NCBI GenBank assembly: GCA_021234155.1
Contig: JAJEKV010000052.1
Location: 7,053,358 to 7,117,357, forward strand
From: Isoetes taiwanensis
Lineage: Eukaryota > Streptophyta > Lycopodiopsida > Isoetales > Isoetaceae
Length of the DNA stretch: 64,000 bases
Direction: 5' to 3'
Part shown: piece after piece, positions 11,930 through 52,108 of the stretch
Layout of the letters: every line of letters starts with the position of its first letter
Numbering within the stretch: the first letter of the stretch is position 1
Notes under the pieces: model-generated
The model's input: the letters and a program-made list of their open reading frames with translations, nothing else
What the model was told of the DNA's origin: nothing
Database searches by the model: none
Position numbers and translations under genes: made by a program

Positions 11930-12034
11930 CTCATAGCATCTCCTTCCTTCTCCCTACGGTTTGGCCCTATTCCTGCTTCACGGTGCTTTTTCTTAGTCTT
12001 GGTAGTTGTTGCCGGTGCATCCACGCTGCTTATT

Positions 12035-12404: not shown

Positions 12405-12544
12405 TAGAGGTAAATCTTGGATTTCTAACAGGAAAAATATAATCTGCATCAGGGATAGGGAGGGGCCAAGAGTTGCGGAGTTCTACGAAATGGGGGATTT
12501 CCTTTTCGATTTGAAAAACGGCCCAAAAATAGGGCTCGAAGGAT

Positions 12545-14200: not shown

Positions 14201-14634
14201 GGTGGCTTTTGGTTCATCTTTCTTGTGAATGCAGGGTTTAGCGTGGCTTTTTGGAAGAGAGCTTTGGATTCGAAGCACAAGATGAAGATCAATGGAGAAG
14301 ACAATTCAAACATGTTTCGTCTTTGGCAACTTCATTGCTGTAATGTATTCTTGATTTATTACAGGTCTCTGGATTTGGCTAGCTCTTTGCTAATGATTCT
14401 GAGCCATTCATCGCCCGCTGCCAAGGTAGATCAAGTATGAAACAATAGGACATCAACACATGCAGCCAGCCAGTGGACAGAATTATTGACAGTAGAAAAA
14501 ACGAAGAGAAACAAGCTGAGAAACAAAACCATATCCAGAACCTTCTTCCTGAAACTTGCTTCTTACACAGCTTAAGAAAAAAATCTTATTCCGTCCATCC
14601 ACAAACCACACCATAAAACAAAGAACATAGATTC

Positions 14635-15147: not shown

Positions 15148-15419
15148 AGCAAGCAGCGTGGATGCACCGGAAGCAAGCTAAAAGACTAAGCAACTGAGAA
15201 GAAGGAAGGAGCCAAACCGAGAAGGAAACAAGAAAGGCCAAACCATAGGAAGAAGAGAGGAGATGCTATGAGAGCTGATGAAGAAAGAAAGGGATGCCAA
15301 AGCTCCTAAATAGAGTACTAGAAAATGGCAAAAAGTAACTAACAGCCAACTGTATCGTAGTTCTAGAACCTTGTTTTCCTTCTATTTGGAGAAACGAAGG
15401 AAAACATCATCTCTACTAT

Positions 15420-19566: not shown

Positions 19567-19571
19567 TCATT
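19567..19571. repeat. Target-site duplication TCATT (left)
   Basis: TCATT immediately precedes the left LTR and is repeated exactly at 36395-36399 after the right LTR, as expected for a Ty3/gypsy integration. Confidence 0.95.
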
Positions 19572-21071
19572 TGTGACGTCCCCTACTCGTATACGATGCC
19601 CGCACCGTATACAAACAAGAGTTCATCCCCCATACCAGCTCTATACTGATACAGGGCCCTCCACATATCACTGTGACCGTACTGGGTCCCCAGTGGGAAG
19701 AGTGAAGGGGTCATTTTACCCCGTCTCCCTCAGGGCCTACCTAGCTGCGGAAGCGTAAACATACATGTCAGTAAACAATATCATCACATATCCACCTCGA
19801 AGGGTGGTCTATCAACATCTGCATAGACAAAGGTCAGCACAAGACATATGGGAATCCTACCCAAGGCTCAGACTCGAAGGGATGACTGACGGCTTGGGTC
19901 TCCAGAGTTCATTGCAAACAGAATTCATGGCAATGGATTTGGCTGGCATAAGAACATGGCTTCGGGTTGTCCGCTCCATCCGCCCCTCCTGTGCACACTT
20001 TACAGAGTAGGCTGAAAAGTGTTGGGACCTGACTATAGCCCGCCGGATGCATAGCCAAAGGGGCTATTCCTGGGTTGCATCTCCCCAGTTCCGATGGGGC
20101 AGGTAGGGATCACTCCCTCCAGAGATCTACATGCTGACTCAAGGTGACTAGAGGGCCATTGCCCTTATTCGACTGAACCCACTGGAAAGTGTACACCACT
20201 CCACGGGTGTCGAGCCCATGCCTTGCCCGCACTCAGTGGCAAGCCATTAGACCTAGTCACAATGATCCCCGGTAGGCCTTACACACCAGAGGGATCGCTC
20301 AAGAGTCAGAACACGAACCTCCTTCTTAGCCAGTCTGGCCCCTTCACCCACAACCAGGTGTGGTTCTTGTACACAGGCCGAATTTACAGTGTGCTAGAGA
20401 GGCTAATCTAGGAGCATCTACTACCAAGCTTGAGGTCTCTACCCCCCTTCCCAATACAAGGAGTTCACAGAGATACATCATCCATATACATCACAGAAGA
20501 ACTAAAGAACTAGATCTAATCTATATCATAGAGTTAGGTTCTTTAGTTAGAGTCTGGTATCTAGAGATCTAAGTGGCTACTATGGGCAATTTAATAGGCT
20601 AAACCTACTGTTACAATGACTGGAAGACGGTTTAGGCTATTAAATTGACTAAATACCTGATCCTTGGCTCGCTCCTCCTGCTCTGAGTTCGACCATCCTG
20701 CTAAACTGCTTGAATCAAGGAAAACTAATGGTGCAATTCGCTTCGACGGAGTCTGGGAGGCGGTTTTGACTCCTGGGGCAGCCAAAACAGAGCTCTAGAA
20801 CCCTATGGACGAAAATGGGCATGTGGGATAATTGGGAATGGCCCACTTGCAGGTGGCATAAATGTATCTACATGGAAAGGTGTGCACCTTAATAAATGTG
20901 CACATTGGTAAATGTGCACATTAATAATAAATGCACATACCTTGCAAGTTGCCCCCTAGGGGCTACTGATCTGGCTACACGTCGGCGTACATGTCAGTCG
21001 GGGTGGCGTGTACGCGTGACGAGGCAGTACAGTATACGCCCTGGGGCCGTATACTGTGCTGGAACGTCACA
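19572..21071 (-). repeat. 3' LTR of the chromovirus (1500 bp)
   Basis: Begins TGTGACGTCC and ends GGAACGTCACA. It matches 34821-36394 along its whole length; most differences are in the first 120 bp. It lacks a segment of about 65-70 bp and a shorter one of about 12 bp that are present in the other LTR near 36060-36175. GTATAC-containing inverted repeats lie near both ends (for example CAGTACAGTATACG and CGTATACTGTGCTG, 21025-21061). A stem CAATTTAATAGGCTAAACC / GGTTTAGGCTATTAAATTG lies at about 20588-20648. Open frames inside are not genes. Confidence 0.95.
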
Positions 21072-21949: not shown

Positions 21950-22174
21950 AATCTACACAAATCGACATGCCTGAGCCGATTTCTTCGGAGATGACCTTGC
22001 CGTCCCATTGCTCCATAAACTGTGGGTACTGCTTTAATAGATCCTACTTAAGTACCCACGTCGCGTCTTCCACCGGCAAGTGTTTCCACTTCACCAAATA
22101 TTGGAGAAATTCTGATCTCTTTGTTTTCTTGAAGGCTTTATCAAGAATCAATTCTGGAACTATTTCCAGCTGCT
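21950..22174 (-). pseudogene. Integrase C-terminal chromodomain
   Basis: On the minus strand: EEQLEIVPELILD, then FLQYLVKWKHLPVEDATWV, a stop (22044-22046), then DLLKQYPQFMEQWDGKV. This is the chromodomain of chromoviral integrases (family pattern: P..IL..R......yLVKWkg....eaTWe......fp.....f), which targets integration by reading chromatin. The stop sits in the middle of the domain, so this copy cannot make it intact. It is separated from the integrase by the 707-bp retroposon at 22183-22889; the frame before that insertion leads naturally into EEQLEIV. Confidence 0.85.
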
Positions 22175-22182
22175 CCTCCGTC
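22175..22182. repeat. Target-site duplication of the retroposon (copy 1)
   Basis: CCTCCGTC on the plus strand, next to the poly(T) run, repeated exactly at 22890-22897. Confidence 0.8.
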
Positions 22183-22889
22183 TTTTTTTTTTTTTTTTTT
22201 TTTTTTTGAAGGCAAGATATTTTTATTTTTATTAATAGTATGTAATAAATACATTTATTTAAGGCTCCCAAAAGCCAGATGCCTAACCGTGTCAACACGG
22301 GTGCTCAAAAGCCCAAGTGTGGAGATAGAAAACAAGCATCATTCCAGAAGTTCATCAAAAGAAAATATCCCATGATGTATGAAGATGCTGCCACCTGAAA
22401 AACCTCCCGAAAATACTGGTAGACAAAAGTAGAGATGAAGGGGTGTCTCCCCGCGCGTTAACTTGGCCCCAAACCCACATCTGCAAAAGGATACAACAGG
22501 AAGACTGCTTACTCTTTTCCTGCTGTACTAGGAGATAAGTAGTCTCACCGTCTTCTCCAAATGCCGATGACTTCTAGAGGCCTCCCCTTTGGGGTCCCCA
22601 AAGGGTGGTCTACTACTTCTGTCTCTACTTTTAGTCACCTGCTTGGGCATCATCATCATTATACTCAACCAACCAGCAAAACTGATAAGCAGCAATGAAT
22701 GCATTTGGCCCTCCCGATCCATATGCCTCTGGATTTTCCCTTAAGCATGGCCTTCTTTCATGATACTGCCTCCTGCAACCACACCCTTCTTCTTGCTGGG
22801 ATAGAAGTGAGCCAACATGAAAAGCCAAACTCTTTCCAAGGTACAAAATATTAAGGCTTTCAAAATCTGTTAGACTCAACACCAAATGG
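22183..22889 (-). mobile_element. Poly(A) retroposon inserted in the chromovirus (LINE end or retrocopied transcript)
   Basis: A 707-bp insertion on the minus strand, flanked by an 8-bp duplication, ending in about 25 A residues preceded by AATAAA-type signals (TTAAATAAATG, TTAATAAAAAT). Its 5' portion is open in frame from the upstream integrase to a stop at 22631 (pieces: LNILYLGKSLAFHVGSLL, AYGSGGPNAFIAAYQFCWLV, DDDAQAGD). I do not recognise this peptide. It is either a 5'-truncated LINE tail or a 5'-truncated copy of a cellular mRNA (C-terminus plus 3' UTR). Being inside the chromodomain region, it is younger than the host element. Confidence 0.75.
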
Positions 22890-22897
22890 CCTCCGTC
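22890..22897. repeat. Target-site duplication of the retroposon (copy 2)
   Basis: CCTCCGTC, identical to 22175-22182; together they bracket the poly(A) insertion. Confidence 0.8.
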
Positions 22898-23965
22898 ATT
22901 TCCAACAACGTTGGAGTGTCCAAGACTTCGTCTGGATTTGGAGTATGCTTGGAAGACCTTATGAATCTTTAGGTGTGCTGGTAGGTCTAACTTGTAGGAT
23001 TGATTACCTACTCTCTTGACTATTCTGAAAGGTCTAGCCCACCTTGGAGCAAGCTTCTTACAATTTCCGATGCGGAGCTTCGCCTGCTTCACTTTGATTT
23101 TGAGCCACACGCTGTCGCCAACTTCGAACTCCCTGACTGTCCGATGCTTGTCGGCGATGCTCTTTTGTCGACTCCTTGCTGCCAGAAGATATCCTCGAAC
23201 TTCTTCCACTAGCTGCTGCATGTCGGCCAACATCTGCTGCGAAACCTCTACTTTTGACACGGGATTGTGCCAAGTGTCTGGAGTTAGGCACTGGTAGCCG
23301 TAATTGGTCATAAACAAAGACATTTGGGATGACTCCTGCTTGGTGCTATTATACGCAAATTCCACCAAGTGAATAAATTCTTCCCACATATCTTGCTTGT
23401 TCCAGACATAGTTTCGTAGCATATCCTCCAAAATCCTGTTGGTCCGCTCCGTCTGGCCATCCGTCTGGAGATGATAGGCCGTGCTCATGGATAGCTTCGT
23501 CTGAATTGTCGCAAAGAGGTCTTGCCAAAAGGCACTCATAAACTTCGGATCCCTGTCGGAGATAATCTCCCTTGGCATGCCATGAAGCCTGAAGATTTCT
23601 TTGGTGAAGAGCTTCGTTGTATCCATAGCGGTGTCTGTGGTCCTACAAGGCACAAAATGTGCCATCTTCGACAACTTGTCGACCACTACCATCAAGGCGT
23701 CCTTCCCTCTTACTGTCCTTGGAAGCCCTGTTATGAAATCCATGCTGATCACCTTCCACTTAGCGTTTGGCACCGCTAATGGCTCCAATGCCCCTGAAAT
23801 TCGAAGCTGCTCTGCCTTCGTTTGCTGACATAGCTGACATTCCTTGATGTAGCGAGCTACCTGCTTCTTCATTCCTGGCCAATAATAGCTGCTGCGCACT
23901 TTGAAATATGTCTTCATGAATCCTGCATGGCCAAGTCGCTGGAGAGCGTCGAAATTGCATTGCAA
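22898..23965 (-). pseudogene. Chromoviral integrase
   Basis: Minus-strand frame with a zinc-binding N-terminal region (YYWPGMKKQVARYIKECQLC), a catalytic core DDE: Asp in VISMDFITGLPRT, Asp in IISDRDPKF, Glu in QTDGQTERTNR, then the GPY/F-type C-terminal module (KLAPRWARPFRIVKRVG, YKLDLPAHLKIHKVF). It inserts element cDNA into host chromosomes. After HKVF the frame departs from the one leading into the chromodomain (a one-base shift near 22935), so the C-terminal tail is lost here. The N-terminal side joins the RNase H frame through another frame change near 23930. Confidence 0.9.
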
Positions 23966-24895
23966 TGCACTCTAGTTGTCAGGGGATGCCTTGAAAGCGC
24001 ATCCGCTACCACATTGAGCTTCCCCGGCTTGTAGACTATATCAAAGTCATACTCCTCGAGGAACTCCATCCACCTTCGCTGCCTCAGATTAAGGTGTGGT
24101 TGCGTGAATACATACTGGAGGCTCTGATGATCTGTATCCAATTGGAACTTCCTTCCCAAGAGATAGTGCCTCCAAATTCTTAATGCCCTGATAACTGCAA
24201 GCAATTCTTGATCGTGCGTCGGGTAGCGCGTCTCTGCGTCGTTCATCTTCCTAGAATCATACGCTACCACACGCTCTTCCTGCATGAGCATTGCGCCTGT
24301 GGCTATCTTACTCGCATCTGTCGCCACAAGCTTATCTTTCTCTGGGTCCGGCAGGGTTAAGACGGGGGCGGTTGTTAAAGCTTCTTTCAACAATTCAAAC
24401 CCTGCTTGGGCTTTCTTGTGCCAATGCTCTGCCCAATCTTTCACCTTCTCCGCCCTCGTCAAGTCTGTTAGCGGCGCCGCTATCTTAGCAAAGTTCTTCA
24501 CGAACTTCCTGTAGTACCCTGCTAGGCCGAGGAAACTTCTGACCTCATGGACATTCTTCGGTGCCGGCCACTGAATCACTGCTTCAATCTTGGCGGGATC
24601 CGTCGAGATTCCTTCTGCTGAGATCACATGACCCAGGTATTCCACCTTCTCCGTCGCGAAGTGACACTTCGACAACTTGGCGTACAACTGGTGCCTCTTC
24701 AATTTCTCTAGCACTCTCCTTAAGTATTGTACGTGCTCTTCAAGGGATCTGCTATACACCAAAATGTCGTCAAAGAATACTATTACAAAGGTGTCTAAGA
24801 ACTCCCTGAAGATGTCGTTCATGAGCTTCATGAACGTTGCTGGGGCATTCGATAAGCCGAAAGGCATTACCGTGAACTCATAGTGTCCATACCGC
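23914..24895 (-). pseudogene. Reverse transcriptase (C-terminal half) and RNase H
   Basis: Minus-strand frame starting [18 protein letters not shown], with the RT active-site box [12 protein letters not shown] (F in place of the usual Y before DD), the connection motifs [15 protein letters not shown], and an RNase H domain ([53 protein letters not shown]). It is separated from the upstream RT half by a frameshift near 24890: the conserved YGHYEF segment lies in another frame. Confidence 0.9.
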
Positions 24896-25905
24896 TTCTG
24901 AAGGTGGTTTTATGAATATCTTCTTCCTTTATCCGGATCTGATGATAGCCTGACCTTAAGTCAATTTTGGAGAAGACTTTTGCCCCTTGGAGCTGATCCA
25001 TTAAGTCATCTGATCTGGGGAGCACATACTTGTTCTTAATGGTGTGCTTGTTCAACTGCCTATAGTCTATGCACATCCTCAAACTGCCATCCTTCTTCTT
25101 GACAAAAAGAATGGGTACTCCAAATGGCGAGACGCTAGGTCTAATGAAGCCTAGGTCGAGCAACTCCTGCAATTGCTTCTTTAGCTCTGTCAGCTCCTGC
25201 GTCGTCATTCTGTATGGAGCCTTGCTTATTGGCTTCGTTCTTGGTTCGAGTGCTATCTCACACTCGACTCCCCTGTAAGGAGGGAGGTGCTCGATCTCAT
25301 CTGGAAAGAGATCGTGGAACTCCGTGATCAACTTAGCTACTTGCTTGGGCAACTTACTGAGCACCTTGTCTTCTTTGCTTTCTTCTGACTCCGGCTCTTC
25401 AATCTCAAGCTTGAAGATGTATGCTACCTGCTCGCTTTTGATGCACTTGAACAGCTGTTTACTTGACATGCACTGCATGATGGGAGCAACTTCTTTACCT
25501 GTGATCTCGATAATCTTGCCGTCGGGCGTTGTGAAGATCACCTTCCGCTTTCCACAATCAACGATGGCCCCTACTGGTCCAAGATACTCCATTCCTATGA
25601 TCAAGTTGTACTTGCCAATATTCATTACTTATGCCCCCATCTGGATGTTGATTCCCGGCAAATCATTGTCGAAGTTTATCCTTTTGTCTGCTGTATGCCT
25701 TACTCCCCCGTTTGCTAACACGACGGGTCTTGGCTTGGACTTCAATGGCTTGGGCTTCAACATTTCAACCATTCTTGGGGATGCAAAGTTGTGGCTACTT
25801 CCCGAATCTATCAGGACTATGAAGGACTTGGCCTTGGCCTTCCCTACTGTGGAAATTACCTTATACTGGTTCTCTGCTTGTTCTGTGTCTATTGCGGCAA
25901 AGATA
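24867..25905 (-). pseudogene. Aspartic protease and N-terminal half of reverse transcriptase
   Basis: Protease active site VLIDSGSSHNF with the catalytic Asp codon at 25806-25808, and the flap-side motif [19 protein letters not shown]. An in-frame TAA lies just before MNIGKYN (about 25627). The RT follows with [34 protein letters not shown] and [15 protein letters not shown] (first catalytic Asp). It cleaves the polyprotein and copies the RNA. The upstream edge is interrupted by the 1.24-kb DNA insertion; the amino acids GER at the junction are present on both sides because of the target duplication. Confidence 0.9.
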
Positions 25906-25916
25906 TGACGCTCACC
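25906..25916. repeat. Target-site duplication of the composite DNA insertion (left)
   Basis: TGACGCTCACC, repeated exactly at 27161-27171. The true duplication may be 10 bp (GACGCTCACC), since the T could belong to the element end. Confidence 0.85.
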
Positions 25917-26304
25917 AATGTTGTTAAAAAACCCGTTTTTTATTTTTAAAGTACTTCTATAAAAATCCTCACGTACTTTAAAGGATTTTTATGATTTGGC
26001 ATGGCCAAAAAATAAAAAATAAAAAAATTGCACATTCTTTGCACTGCTTTATTGGACATATTTGCTACTGTTAAAATGCACATTATTGCTACAAGTTATA
26101 AGACATAGCATGCCAACAAGTAAATCAGAAGCTTATGCTACTATTAGAAACTATTAAGTTCAAGTACAAAGATATCGTAGTTGTTTTGCCATGCAACTCT
26201 TAAGAAAGTTCAGAAAAACATTATTATAGAGGTTAAGAAGTATAAGAATTTTATATACAAAGATAAATAAGTTTAAGAATATCATATATTTGGATAAAAA
26301 AAAA

Positions 26305-26410
26305 TCACAGTCTAAGGATTTTTAAGGATTTTTAAAGATTTTTAAGGATTTTTAAGGATTTTTAAAGAAGGATTTTTAAGGATTTTTAAGATTTTAAAGA
26401 TTTTTAACGT
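26305..26410 (+). repeat. AAGGATTTTT minisatellite
   Basis: Around nine near-identical 10-11-bp units AAGGATTTTT in a row inside the DNA insertion. Confidence 0.8.
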
Positions 26411-26844
26411 ATTTTATATAAATACGTTTTTAAAGTTTTTTTTTCAAAAATTTTAAAAATCTTCAAAAAATCTTAAAAAAACATTTTTTAAACGTACGGA
26501 TTTTGACGTACTTAACAACATTGCTGTGGATATGCATGTCTTATATATACAATATGTTAATAGATCTGAATTACATAATAAGGTACATAGGGATTGAGTA
26601 TAGATCTAATAATTGGTAAAATGATGGTAAGAAATGTACTGGTAAAAGGATGGTAAGAAATATGCTGCCCCATGAATAATTTATGCGTAATGGGGGATTT
26701 TGGTTGATCTACACATCAAGGTGGTTAAAAAACCCGTTTTTTATTCATAAAAATCTTCTATAAAAATCTGTACGTACTCTAAAAGATTTTTATGGAATGG
26801 GATGGCCAAAAAAAAAAAAATTGCCCTAATTTTTTTGTGCACAT

Positions 26845-27025
26845 TTAGGTTTAGGGTTTGAATGTTTAGAATTAAGGTTTACAGGGGTTAGAATGTTTAG
26901 GTTTAGGGTTAGAATGTTTAGGCTTACATTGTGTACACAGGTTTAGGGTTAGAATGTTGAAAATTTAGGATTACAGGTTTAGAATTTAGGTTTAGGGTTA
27001 GAATTGTAGGCTTACAGGTTTAGAA
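26845..27025 (+). repeat. Degenerate telomere-like repeats (TTTAGGG family)
   Basis: GGTTTAGGGTT occurs at least four times, mixed with GTTTAGAAT, GTTTAGGCTTAC and similar variants. Interstitial telomeric-like sequence inside unit B of the insertion. Confidence 0.7.
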
Positions 27026-27160
27026 TTTCATATTGTAATGGCTATATTGTAATTTCTATAAAATTTGTATTCTAAGGATTTTTATATTTTTTTAAAAAAC
27101 CTTTAAAAAATCTTTGCATACGGATTTTTAAGGTACGGATTTCTAAGTACTCAACTACCT

Positions 27161-27171
27161 TGACGCTCACC
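27161..27171. repeat. Target-site duplication of the composite DNA insertion (right)
   Basis: TGACGCTCACC, identical to 25906-25916. Removing the insertion and one copy restores a continuous gag-protease frame. Confidence 0.85.
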
Positions 27172-28479
27172 CTGAATATAGTCGCGGACTGGCTCGCCGT
27201 CGTCGTCAGACGGAGTGTCCCAATCTTCCAACTCCGCTAGCGCTGCACTCATGACGTAGGGGCAGTTCGTTGTCCTGTGGCCCGGCTAGAAGCACCTGAA
27301 GCAAAGCTGCTTCTCTATGCACTCCTGTCTCTTCTCCTTGGGCATGGCTTGCAAGAAGGACTGCACTGCTTTGGAGTAGTTTGACCCCTCCTGCTTGTCC
27401 TTGAAGGACACCTGCTTCTTCTCTTGCTGCTTCCCCTGGTTGCCACCATATGGGGCTCTAGCTGGACCTGGGCTGGCTGCCCTAGGGCTATAACTCCCTG
27501 TTGCCTTGCCTTTATCCTGGTAATACTGCTGCCTCTGCCCCCTATTCTGAGGCCCCATTCCTTGCAAGCTTATTGCATTGGACTCTGCTTCTGATACTAT
27601 CTTAGGGTTTATTGCCCTTACAAGCTTGCGGATCTCATCATTCAGCCCCTCAATGTAGCTCTCCATTGCATGCTTTTCACCCAACTTTGGCACATAAAGC
27701 CTTAGCCTCATGAATTCCTCTGTATATTTCTGGACTGATTTGTTGCCTTGCTGCAACCTGTAGAACTGCTGTATCATGCTGGACTTGTGCTCTCTTGGGA
27801 CGTAATGGCGCTTGAAGGCTTTAACAAACTTTCTGAACCTGCAAGCATCCCTGCTCAAGCCATGGGTCTTTGCATAACCCTTCCACCAAATGCGTGTTGC
27901 TCCTTTCAGGTTGGCTGTTGCCACCCTGCCTTTATCCTTGTCCTTCATACTATAGGCGTTGCCGTATTCACTCATCTCATCGAGCCAAGCCTCTGCTTCC
28001 ATGCCCGACCTATTCTCGCCTGAGAATTGCTCGAGCTTCATGGCCTTCCATACGTTTCCCAATGCAGAGTCTACCTTCTTCTGGTAGTCCGAGGTTCTCG
28101 TCTCCTTGTGTCTGTCGTCCCTTCGGTCCTGCACTGGTTCAGCCTCTTCCTCGGAGTCAGAGTCTGAGTCCGAGCTGGGGTCGGAGGATTCCGTACTGGG
28201 GGACCTCCTTCTCTTGCTCCTCCTCTTGTCCTTCCCTGCTTTCCAAGCTGATGCTTGTGGCAACTGAGCGTTGCCCTCCAAATCAACTCCTGCTTGTGCG
28301 GCCGGGAAAGCCTTTATCTGCTCAAGGTCCGTCCTCATCTGTGACATTTCCTCCTCTGGGGTCATGGGTCCAAATGCCTCATACAGGTTCCTTGCTGGGG
28401 GTGGCCTGGGCAGAGTCTGTTCTTCTCTATGGTCTCGGCGTTGTCGTTCCCCTGAGCCTGGGCCTCTAGCTGCATACAC
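27172..28479 (-). pseudogene. Chromoviral Gag (capsid, nucleocapsid zinc knuckle)
   Basis: About 400 residues of minus-strand frame. A charged N-terminus is followed by a retrotransposon Gag domain (AWLDEMSEYGNAYSM, TRIWWKGYAKTHG, FKRHYVPREHKSSMIQQFYR, QKYTEEFMRLRLYVP), a basic linker, then the CCHC knuckle CFRCF-x2-GHRTTNC. A TAG at about 27283-27285 falls inside the knuckle. An acidic segment (DWDTPSDDDGEP) leads to the protease. The exact start is unclear: the frame is open slightly upstream of 28479, and an ATG in another frame lies near 28495. Gag packages the element RNA in cytoplasmic particles. Confidence 0.9.
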
Positions 28480-28646
28480 AAGTAGGTCATGGCTGTACGG
28501 TTAGTTTCATTTATTCTCTTGCATTATATATGTTTGTTGGTATAGTTGTGGAACAAAATACATCAACAAAACATTTAAAGTGCAAAAGAAATTATATTCA
28601 TATTATATAATATCCTAATACAAAACCTCCGGGATCAAGAGTCTGA
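28480..28646 (-). other. Short spacer between the unknown ORF and gag
   Basis: AT-rich, with no motif seen. It could hold a gag leader. Confidence 0.4.
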
Positions 28647-30153
28647 CTATTCTTGAAATCGCCGGTAGGATGGGTTGTCCTCAAGGAACTTCTTAACTTG
28701 GGCCGTTCCTGCCGAGCGTCCCAAGTTCCTAAGGACATTGGTGGATGACCCGCCTTGCAAGGCTGTCACCAATTCTTCTACCCTGCGGTCGGAGGCGTAG
28801 GCCGCTGTTACTGCCAATCTCCCCTGCCGTCGGTAGGCCACGGCGAAGTCGAAGAGGTCAAGTGCCATCGCTCTCTTGACTAAGACAGCATAGTCGACAT
28901 TTGCAGCTATTCGAGCATGCCTGCCAAAGCCAGAGAGTGCAATGAGCATGAACACTCCTTCTTCGCCTCGTGGACTGAATTTGCGGTGTACCACCGCTAT
29001 TCTCCCATCCAGCAGCAGAGGAAGGTAGTACCTCAGTGACCTGTCGTTGTGTGTCGCAGATGATTCTCCACTTGCTTGGCCTCCAGCTCTATGTCGTCCG
29101 GCGTATTCGTCGACCTCTATCTCCGTCATTTCTTGATAGTCTCTGATTGTCGAGTCGACCCGCCTGATGTCGATCCCTGCTCCTCTTGCTGGAGGTGGTG
29201 TTGAGGGACTCGGCATCAAAATGCTCGTTGTCTTGCCGCGGATCCCCATCCATTCCTGGATGGCCAGGAACTCCTCCTCTGATGGCAGTTCTCGAGCTTC
29301 CATGATTTGTCGTATGTTGCTGTAGGCCTGGATATCGGAAGTCGACTCCCCTGTATAGGTGTCAGCACTTGAAGCGGGAAGTCTGAGACTCCCCGGACGA
29401 TGAAGTCGTCCAAGTCTGGTTGTTGCCGTAGTTGGTGCAGCAACTCATCGAGCCGAAACTCCCTCTCCCTGCATTCGGGGAAATGCTGTATGTCACTGAG
29501 GAGCAGATACTCCTCACCGTCGATGATGATGGGGGCTAGGCTTGTGATACCTAGCCCTAGTGGGGGAGCGACTCTGAGGTTTTGCCGGCTCCGCTCGAAG
29601 TTGGTGAGCTCCTCTTCTGCTTGCCGCCGTTCGTCCTCTGGGTCGAGCTCCGTATATTCTTCCTCTTCTGATTCCTCTTCATCTGCTCTTCCTTCTTGCT
29701 CTTGATGGTACTGCAAAAGCATCTGCTCTGCTGCTGCGGTTACCTCCATGGGAGGAATAGAGGTTGCTTCCATTGGGTTTTCGGCACGGTGGGAAAGGAA
29801 AATGGCTAAGGCGGCGGTGTAGGAAAAATACTTGGTCCTGTCAACTGTCAGGACCATGTAATCTGGCAGCCTCTGTGCCTTGTTCGTCAAGTACTTGGCA
29901 ATGTTCGGAACATCGCCCAAGGCTGCTTGAAGGGATGGGCGGGAACAAAATAGCCTATGCAAGGGGGTAGCTGCACTAGGGAAGGTCCTAGCCTAGCTTG
30001 GAACTCGGCTAAGACTTGCCTATATGCTGGGGTCGCATGCAGAGTTGCTTGGACATCTATCTCTTTCCTAAAGACTCGGAAGATGTCGTTGACATCCGCC
30101 TCGGCAGCATGGGCGCTGGCGCTGTACCATCGCCTGAAGTCAGCAGTTGCCAT
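28647..30153 (-). pseudogene. Element-borne ORF of about 500 aa, unknown function, two frameshifts
   Basis: Starts at ATG 30153 (MATADFRRWYSASAHAAEAD) and runs through three minus-strand frames joined near 29940 and 29360 to a stop at 28647. Visible parts: an N-terminal helical region (DVNDIFRVFRKEIDVQATLH), a middle part (VPNIAKYLTNKAQRLPDYMV, AALAIFLSHRAENPM), an acidic stretch (EEESEEEEYTELDPEDERRQ), a region APIIIDGEEYLLLSDIQHFP, and a C-terminal domain rich in R/A (GRHARIAANVDYAVLVKRAM, FAVAYRRQGRLAV) ending YRRFQE. No family recognised. The ATG follows a CTATAAATAG box by 118 bp and two upstream palindromes, the same layout as the H3-like gene, suggesting joint regulation. It lies inside the LTRs, between the H3-like gene and gag. 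Confidence 0.7.
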
Positions 30154-30270: not shown

Positions 30271-30280
30271 CTATTTATAG
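30271..30280 (-). promoter_or_regulatory. TATA box of the 500-aa ORF
   Basis: CTATAAATAG on the minus strand, 118 bp before the ATG at 30153. The identical decamer precedes the H3-like gene at 34235-34244. Confidence 0.7.
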
Positions 30281-30471
30281 AAAAAGGTAAAACCCTAATT
30301 TTTGGATGACCTGGAATTTTACTGGGGTTGGGCAATTCTGACCTATTAAGAGGTCCAAATGAGAATTTGAAGACTACTTTTAGGGTTTGAGCATGCTAAG
30401 ATTGGCTAATGAACCTATTGCAATAAACTGGAGGTCATTTGGATATGGCATGGTGGAGAAAATGCTGAGAG

Positions 30472-30538
30472 GTCTCACACGTTGCGCCCAGGCCGATAAT
30501 GAAAAGTTCATTTTCTGCCCTGGCGCGACGTGTGAGAC
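30472..30538. promoter_or_regulatory. 67-bp imperfect palindrome, copy 1
   Basis: Arms GTCTCACACGTTGCGCCCAG and CTGGCGCGACGTGTGAGAC (one mismatch plus one unpaired base), with an inner stem AATGAA..TTCATT. About 190 bp upstream of the TATA box at 30271. Contains ACGT cores (ACACGTTG, GACGTGTG). Confidence 0.85.
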
Positions 30539-30671
30539 ATTGGCTCTAATTGGGTTAAACTTGTCCAATTTGGGTGATGTAAGGGTCTAATTCTACTGGA
30601 CTCGTCGAGTTAGGTAGAATTAACCCTTTATTTGGTCAATTTGGAGCAGTTTTGGGCACTTTTGGGGCATG

Positions 30672-30738
30672 GTCTCACACGTTGCGCCCAGCCCGAAAAT
30701 GAAAAGTTCATTTTCTGTCCTGGCGCGACGTGTGAGAC
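30672..30738. promoter_or_regulatory. 67-bp imperfect palindrome, copy 2
   Basis: Nearly identical to copy 1, exactly 200 bp further upstream on the minus strand. Inner stem AAAATGAA..TTCATTTT. Confidence 0.85.
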
Positions 30739-30882
30739 ATCCTCTCAAATTTGCTCAAAGTGTCCATTTTAACTAAAACAAAAGCCAGAATTCGATATCT
30801 TAACCTACTTAAGCAATATTACACATATTACTTAACCGAAAATTGTTTATATTAACAAATGTTTTCTATTATTTACAAAATC
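30739..30882 (-). other. Spacer downstream of the H3-like gene
   Basis: AT-rich sequence just after the H3-like stop; it could contain the 3' untranslated region of that gene. No clear poly(A) signal was identified. Confidence 0.35.
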
Positions 30883-31197
30883 TTAAGGGCGCTCTCCCTT
30901 GATATGGCTAGCAAGATGCATGTCTTGCCTCATGAGTGTGACCCTCTTCGCGTGAACTGTGCAGGCCGTCGAATCTTCGAAATGCTGCACCAGTTTTTGC
31001 TCTGCTGCTTCCTGCAGGGCCAACAACATTTCGTCGGTCACCCTCATATCCGTGTTGTATTCTTGAACTACCTCTCGGACCAGGCGGTTGAACGGTGCTC
31101 GGGGGATCAAAAACCCGTAGCTTCTCTGAAAGTGCCTGATCTCCTTGAGGGCTCTCCTCTCGGTCTCCTTCCTGCCGGTCCTCTTCTTCCCTGTGCT
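30883..31197 (-). CDS. Histone H3 fold domain of the element-borne H3-like protein
   Basis: A frame of 104 codons from just after a TAG (31198-31200) to the stop at 30883. It aligns without gaps to canonical H3 from the alphaN helix onward. Basic lead TGKKRTGRKETERR; alphaN ALKEIRHFQRSYGFLIP; alpha1 PFNRLVREVVQEY; loop1 NTDMRVTDE of H3 length; alpha2 LLALQEAAEQKLVQHFED; loop2 and alpha3 HAKRVTLMRQDMHLASHI, ending KGERP (H3: RGERA). LIPRAPFNRLV and VTLM are closer to CENH3, while the loop-1 length and the C-terminus are closer to H3. The upstream CTAG could be a splice acceptor. The charged upstream ORF enters from another frame, so this copy may need an intron or may be frameshifted. A histone is not a normal chromovirus product. 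Confidence 0.9.
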   Translation of the reverse strand, partial: STGKKRTGRKETERRALKEIRHFQRSYGFLIPRAPFNRLVREVVQEYNTDMRVTDEMLLALQEAAEQKLVQHFEDSTACTVHAKRVTLMRQDMHLASHIKGERP

Positions 31198-31373
31198 CTA
31201 GGAGGCTTGGGCTTCGGTGGTGGCGGCTTCAGAGTTTGGCTCTTCGTCGGGTGTCCGCCTTCGATAGTTCTTACCCTGTTCTCCAGGTAGTACGCGTTGT
31301 ACGCCTCCCACTTCACCATGAAGGCGTTGTGCTCCCTTAGCTTCTTCTGATAGACCTTAACAGGGTCTATCAC
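31107..31373 (-). pseudogene. Linker segment of the H3-like gene (different frame)
   Basis: Open minus-strand frame giving DPVKVYQKKLREHNAFMVKW, EAYNAYYLENRVRTIEGG and a proline/lysine stretch (LKPPPPKPKPPRAQG). The frames before it (31357-31968) and after it (the histone fold) are in phase with each other, but this one is shifted. So two compensating frameshifts, or a small intron, lie here. The helical KVYQKKLREHN part looks like real protein, but I recognise no family. Confidence 0.55.
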
Positions 31374-31968
31374 GTACGCCTCTCGAGCTGGCCGGGGTGC
31401 TTTGACTCGGTCCCACGTCGGGTATGGTGGGGGGCTTCTGCGGCTGCTCGGGCTGCTCCGGGTCGGGCTGCTCCTGGTCGGGTACTACCTGCTCGACAAC
31501 TGGGGGTTTTGAAGAGCTTGCACCCTCGGTGTTGGGGACGAAGTCTTCGTCGGAATCATCGGTGGAGGGCGGGGTCTGGTCCGCTGAGGGTTCGTTAATG
31601 ACTAAACCCTTTACCCGCTTAACCTGCACGACTTTTCTTTTGCCCACCATCTTGCCTTTCGCCTTCTTCTTCTTCGGCTCCTCCTCTTCCCTCTTTCTCT
31701 TCTTTTCTCGACGGCGCTCTTTGGCTTCATGCTTTGCAATCCACGCCGCGAGCTCTTCCTCCTCAGCTGGCTCGAGCCTCGGCTCCCTCTGTTCCTCTCG
31801 CTCCTCAGCCTCCTTCAAACGAACCCAAGCTTCGAGCTGCTCCTCGATGGTTGGCTCAAGGGTCGGCTGCCTCTGTTCTTCCTTCTCTGTTCTTCTTTCT
31901 TCTTCATTTCCTGTTGACCCTAAACCTGGCTTAAGGATCAACCACAAGGAACCAACTTGAGCTTTCAC
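31357..31968 (-). CDS. Charged middle region of the H3-like protein
   Basis: About 190 residues, strongly charged. Repeated acidic-basic blocks with two related units (LEPTIEEQLEAWVRLKEAEE and LEPAEEEELAAWIAKHEAKE) are followed by a lysine-rich nuclear-localisation-like stretch (RREKKRKREEEEPKKKKAKG), then a serine/acid and proline-rich part (PPSTDDSDEDFVPN, EQPEQPQKPP). No ATG opens it, and the upstream sequence contains acceptor-like CAG/AG sites (AGGGTCAACAG near 31915). I therefore infer an internal exon between the H3-tail exon and the histone fold. The paired L-E-P-x-x-E-E-x-L-x-A-W motif suggests an internal duplication. Confidence 0.6.
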   Translation of the reverse strand: MKAQVGSLWLILKPGLGSTGNEEERRTEKEEQRQPTLEPTIEEQLEAWVRLKEAEEREEQREPRLEPAEEEELAAWIAKHEAKERRREKKRKREEEEPKKKKAKGKMVGKRKVVQVKRVKGLVINEPSADQTPPSTDDSDEDFVPNTEGASSSKPPVVEQVVPDQEQPDPEQPEQPQKPPTIPDVGPSQSTPASSRGVRDRPC

Positions 31969-33758
31969 TCAAATTGGGGTTAGAACCTCCAGATCACTTA
32001 AGGTGATCAATCTATGCAAGCAAATTTCAATGATAAGTCCAAAAACTTGAAGTTTTGTACCTTTCCCATTTCCAGAAATTGACACCTTTGTCAAAACAGT
32101 TGTGGTATTGATATGCAAATCGATTTTTTGAGTCAACCACTGTAGACTTAGTCAGAAAAGATGTAGGTACTCAAAGGTAAAGCTTCTGACCAAGTCAGAA
32201 ATATAGTTTGTGAGTTATTCGAGCTCAAAGTGCAGTCAAAATTTGGTCAATAGCAGTCAAAATCTGAAAACAGTGATTAGAGATTGGAATTTTGGAGTTG
32301 CCAGACGAGTTGTTGAGAATCTCCAAAGCAAATGTGCTTTAATGGTGATAAGGAATCTAGGCAAAAATGGTCGATTGTCATCCGGATAAGCAAAAGTAAT
32401 TTTTGTTGGATTTGGCAAAATACAGTCAAGAATAGTCAAAACAGAGTGCAAAAATTTCTAACTCAAGTTGTGAGTGGGATTTTTTGGATTTTTCAAGGCA
32501 TATAGGTTCCAGATGCTTCAAGGATTGATGGCAAATGGATCAAAGGTAATCAAAAGTACTCGGGGATTTTCTATAAAATTTTGAACAGAGGAAAAATTGT
32601 AAAGGATCATAACAGAGATAATTTCTTCAGATAGGCATCAAATTTCATTGATAGGAATGTAAATCAATCATAATAATGTTGGATAATAATAATTCAGTAC
32701 TTCAAAATCAACTTCAGGTCAATAAAAAGTTTCAATAGATAATTTCCAACCAAATCTCTTGTGACTTGATCGGGGATTACTCGAGAGACTTCCAAAATCC
32801 TTCGGTCATGCTCAAGAATGATCACAAGAAGGTTTGTAACCACGGGCCTTCAAAAAAAAAATCCTTTTGTCGAATCCCATGTTTTTATCTTAGTTTTCAA
32901 ATGTTTGCTTAATCTTAGCCTTGATTGATGGGTTTATTCGGTTCATAAAGAGTGGGAAGGTCAAAATAGGTAGATTCCGAGGGCTCTGGTGCCAAATCCG
33001 GCGAGATTCGAGGTGGAAGCGAAATTTAGGGTTCTTGGTCTGTATTTTCTCGAGAAAATAGCGATCACGATTTCGTATTTTTTTGCCCGTGATATCCATG
33101 GAATATCTTTGTATTTTTTATTTTTGCAAAGCTAGGCCATGGTTTTAAAAGGTCACTTATAGAAAATTGAAGAGGTGGATCACTTTAGCAATGGCAACCC
33201 TAATTTTTCTTTGGGAATATGCTAAGTCCTTGGGCATAATGGTCAAGAATATTCCATAAAGTATACAAGTGGCATGGCATAATGGTAAGGACTTGCAAAA
33301 GGGTCTTGGCTAGGGAAATTTGCAAAAACAAATGTCATATGAAGTGAGAAAGTATAGAGGCAATGGGGGAATGTGGATGTAATGGAGAAAGGAAAATTTG
33401 GGTAAGGCAAAATAAGGTAGACAAGGGTAAACAAAAAGGAGGGTATGGGTGTGGGAAGAAATGGCTAGAAAATCTCAATGGATAGAGATAGAATATGAAC
33501 AATGATTGGATGAGAATGGCTAAGGGATAAAATCAAGCACCATGGGGTCTTCCAAACTCTTTGACTTCCAATCTTCAAAAAATGTCTTCCAAACTTCATA
33601 ACCCAGAATCTTCTAGAGCATACTTTTTTACTAAGCATTTTGACCTCAAATAAAGTACCTCATGTAAATTTGAACCTTGAGCACTTGTTGACCTGAAGAA
33701 GGAACATCCTTTGACCTCCATATCAATGTTAAATGCCAAGGGTCTTCCAAACTTTGAC
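31969..33758 (-). other. Candidate intron or intergenic part of the H3-like gene
   Basis: About 1.8 kb of AT-rich DNA with stops in all frames lies between the MARTKQTAR exon and the charged region, on the same strand. I infer an intron, but I cannot pick its donor with confidence. No separate gene seen. Confidence 0.45.
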
Positions 33759-34133
33759 CTAGTCTTCTAAAGTAAATTGACCTAGTTTGAATGCATAGAC
33801 CACAATTAGCATGTTGCCCTTTGGGGGCAACATTTCCTCCTCGACCCGATCTTCTTCTTCTTTCTCCTTCCTTGCCACTTCTTCAAGGATTTTCTGCATA
33901 ACGTCCGGCTGCTCTTCGCCCTGGACCTCTGTTCCGGCGCCGGAGTGGGCATCCTCCTCTACCTCTGTGTCACCCCCTTCTTGGTCGTTGTTGTTGTTGG
34001 GGTGCTCTTCGGACAACTCTCCCTCGCTTTGACCTTCTTGCCGAGCGACGCGCTGCCGAAGCATCTCCTGGAGTATGGCGCTGGGAGGAGTGACACCTGG
34101 AGGGACTCTAGCAGTCTGTTTGGTCCTGGCCAT
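33759..34133 (-). CDS. Histone H3 N-terminal tail exon with acidic extension (MARTKQTAR...)
   Basis: The ATG at 34133 is in good context (AGCATGG). The first nine residues, MARTKQTAR, are identical to the histone H3 N-terminus. The canonical K9-S10 is replaced by V-P, and no equivalents of K14, K18, K23, K27 or K36 follow. The next part is PPGVTPPSAILQEMLRQRVA, an acidic region (EGELSEEHPNNNNDQEGGDT, EVEEDAHSGAGTE), and a coiled, charged end (ILEEVARKEKEEEDRVEEE) after which the frame likely leaves the exon. A TATA box lies 102 bp upstream, with two palindromes beyond it. The histone fold lies 3 kb downstream on the same strand. The pair is best read as one interrupted H3-like gene. Confidence 0.85.
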   Translation of the reverse strand: MARTKQTARVPPGVTPPSAILQEMLRQRVARQEGQSEGELSEEHPNNNNDQEGGDTEVEEDAHSGAGTEVQGEEQPDVMQKILEEVARKEKEEEDRVEEEMLPPKGNMLIVVYAFKLGQFTLED

Positions 34134-34234: not shown

Positions 34235-34244
34235 CTATTTATAG
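34235..34244 (-). promoter_or_regulatory. TATA box of the H3-like gene
   Basis: CTATAAATAG on the minus strand, 102 bp before the ATG at 34133; identical to the box at 30271-30280. Confidence 0.7.
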
Positions 34245-34333
34245 ACGGGCCATTTTAGGTCAAATTTCAAACTACCCTTTTGGGTCATCTAGAACACCTA
34301 AAACACCTAAATTTAAGCATTTCTAACCTCATG

Positions 34334-34400
34334 GTCTCACACATTGCGCCCAGACTGAAAATGAAAGTTTCATTTTTGGTCCTGGCGCGACGTGTGAGAC
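34334..34400. promoter_or_regulatory. 67-bp imperfect palindrome, copy 3
   Basis: Left arm GTCTCACACATTGCGCCCAG (one change), right arm CTGGCGCGACGTGTGAGAC; the core AAAATGAAAGTTTCATTTT is itself a perfect palindrome. About 90 bp upstream of the H3-like TATA box. Confidence 0.85.
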
Positions 34401-34548
34401 ATGGTGGATTCTGATGCTAAATTTTATACTTCCTAAGCATGTTTTTAGGAATGTAACATACTAATTCTAGCTAATTCCTAGTTTAAAATTCGAATTACCA
34501 AGTTATTTTTCTAGAATTCATGACTTTTTAAGGTGTTTTGGGCTCAAT

Positions 34549-34615
34549 GTCTCACACGTTGCGCCCAGCCCAAAAATTAGATTTTCATTATCTGTCCTGG
34601 CGCGACGTGTGAGAC
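34549..34615. promoter_or_regulatory. 67-bp imperfect palindrome, copy 4
   Basis: Same arms (GTCTCACACGTTGCGCCCAG / CTGGCGCGACGTGTGAGAC), a more diverged core, and exactly 67 bp like the others. It lies 215 bp upstream of copy 3. Confidence 0.85.
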
Positions 34616-34807
34616 CATCCTTCTTTTTGAAGGTTTGGATCACTAATTTTAGTCTTTTTATGTTCTCATTCACTTTAATTGTTACTATCTTAGCATATAC
34701 TACAAAAATGAGAAAAAAATTTCCCATTTTTCGAGGTTCGAGAATCCTATCAAGTTAGTACTACTGGGAGCATGGTCAGTGCTTTGCTCTTGGTCTCCAA
34801 GAACATT

Positions 34808-34819
34808 GCTCTGATACCA
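34808..34819 (-). other. Primer binding site (initiator Met tRNA)
   Basis: Minus-strand TGGTATCAGAGC, one base inside the 5' LTR end, complementary to the 3' end of plant initiator-Met tRNA. It fixes the element's orientation as minus. Confidence 0.95.
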
Positions 34820-34820: not shown

Positions 34821-36394
34821 TGTGACGTCCCCTATTCGTATATGATGCCTGCACCGTATACAAACAGGAGTTCATCCCCTATACCAGCTCCATCGTCTGG
34901 GGCCCTCCACATATCATCGTGGCCGTCTTTGGGTCCCCAGTGGGAAGAGTGAAGGGGTCATTTTACCCCGTCTCCCTCAGGGCCTACCTAGCTGCGGAAG
35001 CGTAAACATACATGTCAGTAAACAATATCATCACATATCCACCTCGAAGGGTGGTCTATCAACATCTGCATAGACAAAGGTCAGCACAAGACATATGGGA
35101 ATCCTACCCAAGGCTCAGACTCGAAGGGATGACTGACGGCTTGGGTCTCCAGAGTTCATTGCAGACAGAAGTCATGGCAATGGATTTGGCTGGCATAAGA
35201 ACATGGCTTCGGGTTGTCCGCTCCATCCGCCCCTCTGTGCACACTTTGCGAGTAGGTGAAAAGTGTTGGGACTGGACAGTAGCCCGCCGGATGCATAGCC
35301 AAAGGGGCTATTCCTGGGTTGCATCTCCCCAGTTCCGATGGGGCAGGTAGGGATCACTCCCTCCAGAGATCTACATGCTGACTCAAGGTGACTAGAGGGC
35401 CACTGCCCTTATTCGACTGAACCCACTGGAAAGTGTACACCACTCCACGGGTGTCGAGCCCATGCCTTGCCCGCACTCAGTGGCAAGCCATTAGACCTAG
35501 TCACAATGATCCCCGGTAGGCCTTACACACCAGAGGGATCGCTCAAGAGTCAGAACACAAACCTCCTTCTTAGCCAGTCTGGCCCCTTCACCCACAACCA
35601 GGTGTGGTTCTTGTACACAGGCCGAATTTACAGTGTGCTAGAGAGGCTAATCTAGGAGCATCTACTACCAAGCTTGAGGTCTCTACCCCCCTTCCCAATA
35701 CAAGGAGTTCACAGAGATACATCATCCATATACATCACAGAAGAACTAAAGAACTAGATCTAATCTATATCATAGAGTTAGGTTCTTTAGTTAGAGTCTG
35801 GTATCTAGAGATCTAAGTGGCTGCTATGGGCAATTTAATAGGCTAAACCTACTGATACAATGACTGGAAGACGGTTTAGGCTATTAAATTGACTAAATAC
35901 CCGATCCTTGGCTCGCTCCTCCTGCTTTGAGTTCGACCATCCTGCTGAACTGCTTGAATCAAGGAAAACTAATGGTGCAATTCGCTTAGACGGAGTCTGG
36001 GAGGCGGTTTTGACTCCTGGGGCAGCCAAAACAGAGCTCTAGAACCCTATGGACGAAAATGGCAAGTTATAGTTTCCTCCTACCTAAATAGACAAGGGGT
36101 TAGAGCTAGGGTTTCCAATTATCCCTTTAGGCATGTGGGATAATTGGGAATGGCCCACTTGCCTTTAATGGCTAGGTGGCATAAATGTATCTACATGGAA
36201 AGGTGTGCACTTTAATAAATGTGCACATTGGTAAATGTGCACATTAATAATAAATGCACATACCTTGCAAGTTGCCCCCTAGGGGCTACTGATCTGGCTA
36301 CACGTCGGCGTACATGTCAGTCGGGGTGGCGTGTACGCGTGACGAGGCAGTACAGTATACGCCCTGGGGCCGTATACTGTGCTGGAACGTCACA
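34821..36394 (-). repeat. 5' LTR of the chromovirus (1574 bp)
   Basis: TGTGACGTCC to GGAACGTCACA. It retains the two short segments lost from the other LTR (near 36060-36130 and 36160-36175). It carries the same GTATAC inverted pairs and the AATTTAATAGGCT stem at about 35830-35892, and should contain the element's main promoter. Confidence 0.95.
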
Positions 36395-36399
36395 TCATT
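36395..36399. repeat. Target-site duplication TCATT (right)
   Basis: Exact copy of 19567-19571. Confidence 0.95.
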
Positions 36400-46429: not shown

Positions 46430-48733
46430 ATATACCCAGTGTGAAAGACTCTCCTAGAAGATTCTACATAGATTCCCCTAGATTTTCAAAAACTATCCCA
46501 AGGTTCCTCTACATTTCCCAAGATTCCATGTATATTCTCCTAGATTCCCTTGGATTATATGAAAATTCCTCAAGATTCTCCAGGATTCTATTAAGATTCC
46601 TCTATATTATATCATAGATTCCATTAAGATTCCAAGATTCACCCTGCAAAACATATACAGTGTGAAAGATTCTCTTACATTCTAAAAATTCTATATCCCA
46701 ATATTCTTCTACATTTCTCAAGATTCTATGTATATTCTCCTAGATTCCCTTAGATCATATGAAAGTCCTCAAGATTCTCTAGGATTCTATCGAGATTCTC
46801 CTACATCATAAAAGATTCCTCTAAATTCCCCAAGATTTTATGTAGATTCTCCTACATTTCCTTCGATTCTATGAAGATCCCCTTAGATTCTCCAAGATTC
46901 CTCTAGATTCTCTCAAGATTCCCATATATTCCCCAAGAATCTATGTAGATTCTCGTAGACTCTCTAAGATCTTATGAAGATTCCCTTAGGCTCTCCAAGA
47001 TTCCATCAAGATTCCCCTAGATTCTCAAAGTTTCAGGGTTTCCCTAGATTCCCAAAGATTCTCTCAAGATTCACATGATTCCCCAAGATTCTTCTAGATT
47101 CTCTAAGATCCTATCAAGATTTCCTTAGATTCTCAAGTATTCTACGAACATTCCTCAGATTCCTATAGATCCTCTTGAGATTCCCATAGTCCCCAAGATT
47201 CTCTTGAGATTCCCCAAAATTTTCAACAACTATCCTAAGATTCCTAGAGATTCCTCAAGAATCTATGTAGATTCTTTTAGCTTCCCTTATATCTTATGAG
47301 GACACCCCTAGATTCTCAAAGATTCTCTCAAGAATCCCATAGATCCCCCAAGATTCTATGTAGATTCTCCTAGATTCTCGAAGATCGTTTTGAGATTCCA
47401 CTAGATTCCTTGAGGTTCCTTTAGATTCTTTAAGATTCCTTAGATTCTCAAAAAATTTATGAAGATTCCCTTAGATTCCTCTAGATTCTCCCAAGATTCC
47501 CATAGATTCCCCAAGATTCTATGTAGATTCTTCTAGATTCTCTAATCCTATGAAGATTTCCGTAGATTTTCTAAGATTCCATCAAGATTCCCCTAGATTC
47601 TTAAAGATTTATGAAGATTCCACTGGATTCCTCTAGGTTCGCAAAGATTCTTTAGATTCCTAAAGATTCTAATGAGATTCACTTCGTGTACCATAGATTT
47701 CGTTAAGATTTATGAAAATTCCAAAGATTCCCCTAGATTCTCTTAACATACCATAGATTCCATTAAGATTCTAAGATAAGATCCCATGTAGATTCTCCTA
47801 GATTCTCTAAGATCCTATCAAGATTTCCTTAGATTCTCAAGTATTCTATGAAGATTTCCCAGATTCCCATAGATCCTCTTGAGATTCCCATAGTCCCTAA
47901 GATTCTCTTGAGATTCCCTGAAATTTTCAACAACTATCCTAAGATTCCTAGAGATTCCTCAAGAATCTATGTAGATTCTTTTAGCTTCCCTTACATCTTA
48001 TGAGGACACCCCTAGGTTCTCAAAGATTCTCTCAAGAATCCCATAGATCCCCCAAGATTCTATGTAGATTCTCCTAGATTCTCAAAGATCCCTTTTGAGA
48101 TTCCACTAGATTCCTTGAGGTTCCTTTAGATTCTCTAAGATTCCCTAGATTCTCAAAAAATTTATGAAGATTCCCTTAGATTCCTCTAGATTCTCCCAAG
48201 ATTCCCATAGATTCCCCAAGATTCTAGGTAGATTCTCCTAGATTCTCTAATCCTATGAAGATTTCCCTAGATTCTCTAAGATTCCATCAAGATTCCCATA
48301 GATTCCCCAAGATTCTAGGTAGATTCTCCTAGATTCTCTAATCCTATGAAGATTTCCCTAGATTCTCTAAGATTCCATCAAGATTCCCCTAGAATCTCAA
48401 AGATTTATGAAGATTCCACTGGATTCCTCAAGGTTTGCAAAGATTCTTATGTGATTCCTATAGATTCCTAAAGATTCTAATGAGATTCACCTAGATTCTC
48501 AAAGATTCCAGGAAAATTCCCCTAGATTCTCTTCGTGTACCATAGATTTCGTTAAGATTTATGAAAATTCCATTGAATTCCACTAGATTCGCAAAGATTC
48601 TCTTGTGATTCCTATAGATTCTTTAAGATTCTATTGAGATTCCTCTAGATTCTCAAAGATACCTGGAAGATTCCCCTAGATTCTCTTAACATACCATAGA
48701 TTCCATTAAGATTCTAAGATAAGAAGATTCTTA
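46430..48733. repeat. AGATTC-rich minisatellite with higher-order repeats (about 2.3 kb)
   Basis: Built almost entirely of short units such as AGATTCCCCTAGATTCTC and AAGATTCTATGTAGATTC, 15-25 bp each with drifting sequence. There is higher-order structure: a block starting CTCTAAGATCCTATCAAGAT at 47101 recurs at 47805. The end marker TTCTCTTAACATACCATAG occurs at about 47742 and 48682. A unit of about 93 bp is tandemly repeated at about 48199-48385. No coding potential. Confidence 0.95.
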
Positions 48734-49640
48734 GGATCCGATCAAGTTGGCTCCAACTATGACGGAACGATGCCAAAGCACCACTCATTGGAAAGTTCTC
48801 GACGAGAGAAATCCAAAGACGTGGGCCCCACCTTAATCCGACCCCTCTAGTGCAAGTTACAGGCCTTTGAATGCGATTAAGAAAAAAGAAGCTTTCTAGA
48901 AAGTGCATCTACTAAATGCTTTGCCATCTCACTACATTTTTATTAATGAGGATGCCACCTCACCTCATTTAAAAGAAAAAATGTAATTTAATATAAAAAC
49001 TTAATGGCTAGGATTTATCCTAACCTTTTGATCTAACGGCTAAGATCTCCTACACCAAATCGCCTTTAAGGAACCTTCCTTGCACCTTCCCTACATTTGA
49101 TTCGATAGTTCACAGATGGGGTGCATGCCCCCATGCATGCCCATGCATGTACACACATCTAAATATGTGGCCGAGATTTAACCCCTAAAATTCGACGGCA
49201 CAGATAGAAAGGAGCAACCGATGTGTCCACACATCAAAGTGTGTTTATATATATAATGATATGGAAACAAGTGTAATTTTTTGTGATGATCCAAATGGGA
49301 ACGTGTCCTGTAGATTAACTGTAAATGTGGAAGATTGATATTTTTCCATCAAAGTTAACATCACTTTCGGAGTCCAAAATTATGGCCTCCTGAATCTTTG
49401 CCCTTTTTGTATATTGAAAATAACATAGCTTGTGATTTTGGATTTTGATTCAGGTGATTTTAGATTTCATGGGAAGATATCATCCTCACCTATTCCCAAT
49501 TGGATCAGGGCATTTTCACAATTTTGCAAATATCTAACTACTAGAAAAAGTGCCCAGCGTTGCTGGGCTTTTTAATGGGATATATTCAAAAACTAATAAA
49601 AATATAGTTGAATGCTACGCCTTCTTGATTTTGGGATGTT
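48734..49640. other. Intergenic stretch, nothing recognised
   Basis: AT-rich and non-coding by eye; the inverted pair AGCTTTCTAGAAAG lies near 48890. Confidence 0.45.
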
Positions 49641-52059: not shown

Positions 52060-52108
52060 TCAATCAATCCAACTCATACTTCTAGCATAATCTAAGGTGA
52101 GTCTTTTA

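Follow-up and report, generated by a model that had tools for sequence, protein, structure and literature searches.

H3-like (H3L) genes sit in hAT DNA transposons of the fungi Pyrenophora and Pseudocercospora, according to the available excerpts of two reports (PMC3538342, PMC6710886). The excerpt on Pyrenophora also describes an extra ORF of unknown function in the element (PMC3538342). In Pseudocercospora the element captured an H3 transcript, and all copies except the original are given there as inactivated by RIP (PMC6710886, excerpt). A Gypsy element of Phalaenopsis contains an ORF for an m6A demethylase, and its authors place it near Ogre-type elements (PMC9289625, in the part available). 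Among viruses, single H3 genes and the bracovirus H4 are cases in which one core histone is encoded with its tail altered or extended; the bracovirus H4 is incorporated into nucleosomes of the host and alters expression, as far as the accessible text of the source goes (PMC9145170).

Here we describe an H3-derived gene in an LTR retrotransposon of Isoetes taiwanensis. It was found in a window of 64 kb, by which we mean the whole stretch of DNA that was analysed. The element resembles the fungal H3L transposons in being a mobile element with an H3-derived gene and, as in Pyrenophora, an additional ORF. It differs from them in having LTRs and gag-pol where the hAT elements have terminal inverted repeats, and in the long linker between the histone tail and fold. 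Like the Phalaenopsis element, it is large, is of the Ty3/gypsy kind found in plants, and has captured a regulatory domain of host type, which here is a histone rather than an RNA demethylase. We found no report of a histone gene in an LTR retrotransposon in open-access full texts. The initial annotation of this locus knew of no standard Ty3 element with this cargo, which agrees with those texts for LTR retrotransposons; for transposon-borne H3 in general, the excerpts on the fungal hAT elements provide a precedent (PMC3538342, PMC6710886).

The element is a Ty3/gypsy chromodomain LTR retrotransposon of about 16.8 kb on the minus strand. Its LTRs (5′ LTR at 34821-36394, 1574 bp; 3′ LTR at 19572-21071, 1500 bp; both minus strand) are bordered by the target-site duplication TCATT, with the left copy at 19567-19571 and the right copy at 36395-36399. 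The primer site adjoining the 5′ LTR is GTGGTATCAGAGC. The primer-binding site, TGGTATCAGAGC (34808-34819, minus strand), is presumably of the initiator tRNA-Met type, and AAGGTGGGGAGAA is the purine (polypurine) tract ahead of the 3′ LTR. The minus strand also contains an open frame for gag (27289-28500; PF03732, 1.3e-17) and pol pieces in several frames (22634-25988) that include a reverse transcriptase (PF00078, 1.8e-11), an RNase H region, and an integrase (PF00665, 4.2e-9, and PF17921, 6.2e-16). A further open frame (22047-22304, minus strand) encodes a chromodomain (PF00385, 9.8e-8). The gag, reverse transcriptase, and integrase genes are in Ty3 order and the chromodomain is C-terminal, in an open frame that follows the integrase piece. 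We take the element to be of plant type from its primer site and domain types, in part an assumption. The LTR-bounded element with a perfect 5-bp duplication and the Ty3/gypsy chromovirus that had been annotated are thus both confirmed.

The present copy is a recent insertion and is partly decayed. The two LTRs are identical in 1465 of 1491 ungapped columns (98.3%), with 92 gap columns besides, and transitions make up 20 of the 26 ungapped mismatches. There are nine gap events between the two LTRs of about 1.5 kb, so this copy would be expected to have gained frame breaks once it was inserted.

The H3-like gene lies between the primer site and gag in the present copy, where the initial annotation had placed it. 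Its first coding piece is an ORF of 124 amino acids on the minus strand (33759-34133; beginning MARTKQTARVPPG) that starts with MARTKQTAR at 34133, in accord with the ATG-started ORF noticed earlier. Across all six frames of the 64-kb window there is a single ARTKQ motif. The next 1.8 kb (31969-33758, minus strand) have no long ORF on the minus strand and may be an intron. A highly charged linker follows as an open frame of 203 amino acids (31360-31968, minus strand; D+E 26%, K+R 16%). The pre-fold piece, which begins YVIDPVKVYQ (31269-31376, minus strand, within 31484-31110), is in a different frame from the linker. A donor-like GTAAG at 31274 after this piece, and an AG read by eye ahead of the fold piece, suggest another, small intron. 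The H3 histone-fold piece (30886-31197, minus strand) encodes 104 amino acids and ends at a stop codon at 30885-30883, with 2.9 kb between the start of the tail and the fold. In our model, the tail, linker, and fold pieces likely form one spliced protein of about 430 amino acids. A single linker-joined protein of about 450 amino acids had been proposed; the tail, charged linker, and fold are all present, but the 1.8-kb gap and the frame change mean that they are not one ORF. The interval originally marked (30883-34133) contains the H3-like pieces, but a second gene (30153-28647) and the two promoter-like regions described below lie outside it.

The fold (31197-30886) matches the Pfam family Histone (PF00125, 3.5e-26). 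In the PDB, 177 distinct sequences match it at E≤0.001, the best of which is H3.3 (9.3e-26, 101 residues ungapped). It is of the H3 type with an alpha-N helix. These profile matches point to H3, the identity that had been proposed as open to refutation by profile searches. Plant H3 residues kept at contact positions of the fold include R69, R72, R83, C110, H113, K115, R116, T118, D123, and L126. Two changes, R63 to P and F84 to V, are at sites that contact DNA in H3, so entry into nucleosomes may be weak. Also altered are positions 87-89 of the chaperone-recognition stretch. Overall, the fold shares 48 of 89 residues with a plant H3 (54%), compared with the 73-87% identity to the host given for the folds of single H3s of DNA viruses in the accessible text (PMC9145170).

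The tail has H3 residues 1-8 exactly, K4 included. It then continues V, P, P, and positions 9, 10, and 14 are V, P, and T, with K9, S10, and K14 lost. A long acidic-then-basic linker replaces the rest of the H3 tail, and the K27 region is missing. The earlier description of a captured and remodelled H3 gene is therefore accurate in that an H3-derived gene lies within a chromodomain element; the single protein is a model.

CENH3 has a longer loop 1 than H3. No extra loop 1 residues relative to plant H3 are present in the window fold, whereas Arabidopsis CENH3 (P0033) has them. We placed the fold in a tree of H3 and CENH3 with 66 rows (one of 67 was dropped beforehand, having fewer than 70 filled columns). 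The row from the window forms a long branch, and in the AU test its placement was acceptable both with canonical H3 (p 0.288) and with CENH3 (p 0.542). Of the "H3 or CENH3-like" identity first suggested, the profiles support H3 and the tree rejects neither.

The fold appears to have been under constraint for much of its history, as stop-free and conservatively changed folds are rare in neutral simulations. When a plant H3 fold drifted neutrally to the same identity, it acquired a mean of 2.1 stops and was stop-free in 10.4% of 5000 runs. Replacements as conservative as those observed occurred in 9 of 3000 neutral simulations. As a caveat, those 10.4% of simulated folds are as free of stops as the real one.

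Between the H3-like gene and gag is a second accessory gene, ORF2 (28647-30153, minus strand), which encodes about 500 amino acids and is in three frames in the present copy. A protein search that scored the 8000 candidates sharing most words returned at least one relative, P0164 (501 aa), with 45% identity over 99% (E 6.6e-131). By this comparison, ORF2 encodes a conserved protein of about 500 amino acids. No Pfam domain was found in ORF2, and its structure prediction (four rows) has a mean pLDDT of 40.5, below useful confidence. P0164 comes from a contig of 2007 nt; this length would fit a single transcript, which is a hint at most.

Both accessory genes are preceded by related promoter-like regions. 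Two hairpin repeats lie 5′ of the H3-like gene (34333-34636, minus strand) and two lie 5′ of ORF2 (30471-30759, minus strand; RNA fold z = -10.7). The hairpins are built on TCTCACACGTYGCGCC, of which the window has eight half-sites, all ahead of the two accessory genes (0.22 expected). A TATA-like TCTATAAATAG occurs about 100 nt ahead of the ATG of the H3-like gene (34235-34245, minus strand) and again about 118 nt ahead of the ATG of ORF2 (30271-30281, minus strand). These are the only two exact copies of the 11-mer in the window, compared with 0.12 per shuffle, and none of 60 shuffles reached two; with one mismatch allowed there is no excess over chance (3 found, 2.06 expected). The two core promoter-like regions align locally with a score of 18 (shuffled mean 8.3; reached by none of 1000 shuffles). 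Without the TATA box the score is 14, which 5 of 1000 shuffles reached.

The hairpin-bearing direct repeats on either side of the H3-like gene are 70% identical, while the LTRs are 98.3% identical. The repeats thus diverged much earlier than the LTRs did, which indicates that the element already had the module when the present copy landed. The element thus seems, from these comparisons, to carry a two-gene accessory module older than the present insertion. Direct repeats flanking a gene could also mark a one-off nested insertion, in which the H3 gene reached a single copy inside a different element that had hairpin repeats of its own, and our comparison rests on one element copy. We regard this as highly improbable given the divergence of the repeats relative to the LTRs. 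In addition, the downstream repeat precedes ORF2 with a matching TATA region, and no further sign of insertion was seen around the H3-like gene. A one-off insertion after this copy landed, for which the initial annotation would have taken an insertion signature specific to this copy as grounds, is accordingly disfavoured.

It is also conceivable that a host H3 fragment and the second gene were transduced once and have since been carried without function. Gene capture by transposons often yields pseudogenes, for example the Pseudocercospora hAT elements in the excerpt cited above (PMC6710886), and the present copy has frame breaks. The breaks fit decay after insertion, given the nine LTR gap events, and a functionless passenger would not readily account for two genes with paired promoter-like regions, the similarity of ORF2 to an outside protein along nearly its whole length, or the conservative replacements in the fold. 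We consider such a passenger origin quite unlikely.

Host silencing of transposons acts largely via histone H3 marks. The explanation we prefer, with about even confidence for the whole, is that this chromodomain element has two accessory genes and that its own H3 variant keeps the element expressed. Each accessory gene would be transcribed from its own internal TATA-type promoter with upstream hairpins. The basic tract of the H3-like protein may allow nuclear entry, after which the protein would pair with host H4 and join nucleosomes on or near the element. In the resulting chromatin H3K4 marks would be possible, silencing marks at K9 would be impossible, and the K27 region would be missing. 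With such a tail, the element's own chromatin would be kept open in the proposed mechanism, and this silencing-resistant chromatin would let the element stay expressed. An element-made H3 that keeps K4 and has another residue in place of K9 would strike host silencing at its substrate. Such a strategy is known from a few histone-encoding DNA viruses, and for LTR retrotransposons no report of it was found in open-access full texts. More generally, an H3-carrying retrotransposon suggests that a mobile element may bring its own chromatin protein.

Two other roles for the H3-like protein can be considered. It may act outside nucleosomes as a decoy, with a free ARTKQTAR tail and the acidic linker sequestering chaperones, methylation readers, or demethylases of the host. 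The exact tail and the charge of the linker would suit this role, as would R63P and the altered positions 87-89 in the chaperone-recognition stretch. A tail mimic has no need of a complete, conservatively changed H3 fold, however, and we find a decoy unlikely. Alternatively, the element's H3 may mark chromatin to which the integrase chromodomain or its partners steer new insertions. The same element does encode a chromodomain, and chromodomains are known to bind H3 tails, according to the available text of two sources (PMC6317226, PMC3350952). Here, K9, the residue read by HP1-type chromodomains, is V, and when the residues of the element's chromodomain are read by eye, its aromatic cage is missing the first and last positions. 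A role in guiding integration is therefore very unlikely.

ORF2, with its related promoter region, is a candidate partner of the H3-like protein in the preferred explanation of an H3 variant that keeps the element expressed. A stronger version, which we treat as speculative and rather improbable, is that this retrotransposon lineage evolved a two-gene chromatin module. The module would consist of an H3 that keeps K4, offers no K9 or K27 for methylation, and is expressed from a private promoter. Its partner would be ORF2, perhaps a chaperone or loader, and the module would build chromatin on the element that the host cannot silence. If so, finding the tail-linker-fold plan again in multi-copy proteins that are unrelated would mean that mobile elements reached such histones more than once.

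A read-through H3 query returned 163 matches, and each of the 120 matches listed covers 19-26% of the query. We examined 22 of the 163. Thirteen start with MARTKQTARK and have a long linker ahead of the fold; the others are two N-terminally cut forms of such proteins, three with an extension before a MARTKK tail, three apparent gene-model fusions with canonical H3, and one other. The 13 look-alikes are 360-440 amino acids long with a near-canonical H3 fold, and belong to clusters with up to 212 member sequences. Scans of viral contigs with P0109, the window fold, P0164, and A2 found no relative, and a search of a viral fold library returned nothing at E≤0.001, with viral histones as the best rows. 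A scan of genomic contigs with A2 gave eight loci in records labelled as bacterial MAGs that match residues 294-392 (the fold) only, and these were set aside.

The ENA proteins P0045, P0049, P0057, P0109, and their kin share with the window protein a MARTKQTAR tail, a C-terminal H3 fold, and a linker, which in them is about 250 amino acids long. Unlike the window protein, they keep K9 and have a nearly canonical fold, and their linker is unrelated. Homology between the window linker and this family, first suspected by eye, was rejected; hhalign aligned the fold alone, and local alignments of the linker and of the pre-fold piece were at chance level in eight of eight proteins each. Neither method found a relative of the window linker in the ENA family. 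The tail-linker-fold plan thus seems to have arisen at least twice, perhaps independently. K9 is kept in 12 of 12 aligned look-alikes, so its loss is not a general trait of the plan.

Among the matches read for the read-through H3 query, three database proteins (P0046, P0072 and P0104, the last in a cluster of 16) form a second H3 protein group, in which MARTKK is preceded by an N-terminal extension; these proteins are 239-262 aa long.

The gag and pol of the Ty3/gypsy element are separated by a 1.3 kb AT-rich gap (window 25988-27289) that contains tandem TAAGGATTTT units.

Elsewhere in the window there is a long and diverged minisatellite array (46446-48743) with a unit of ~31 nt, AAGATTCCCCTAGATTCT..., and a pair of inverted copies, 11913-13044 and 14350-15289, with 77-79% identity. 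Each copy contains a similar ORF, MAP..KLRKRHASDSSE...WLKAMEGRLEAK / WFKAMEGRLEAK. A direct repeat with 94% identity (59938-60275 and 63663-64000) reaches the window edge, and the two repeats are perhaps the LTRs of a further element. On the plus strand we also found an ORF that, judged by eye, resembles a LINE-type reverse transcriptase (956-1630), and a U1 spliceosomal RNA, either a gene or a copy (51902-52060; Rfam RF00003, 127.5 bits).
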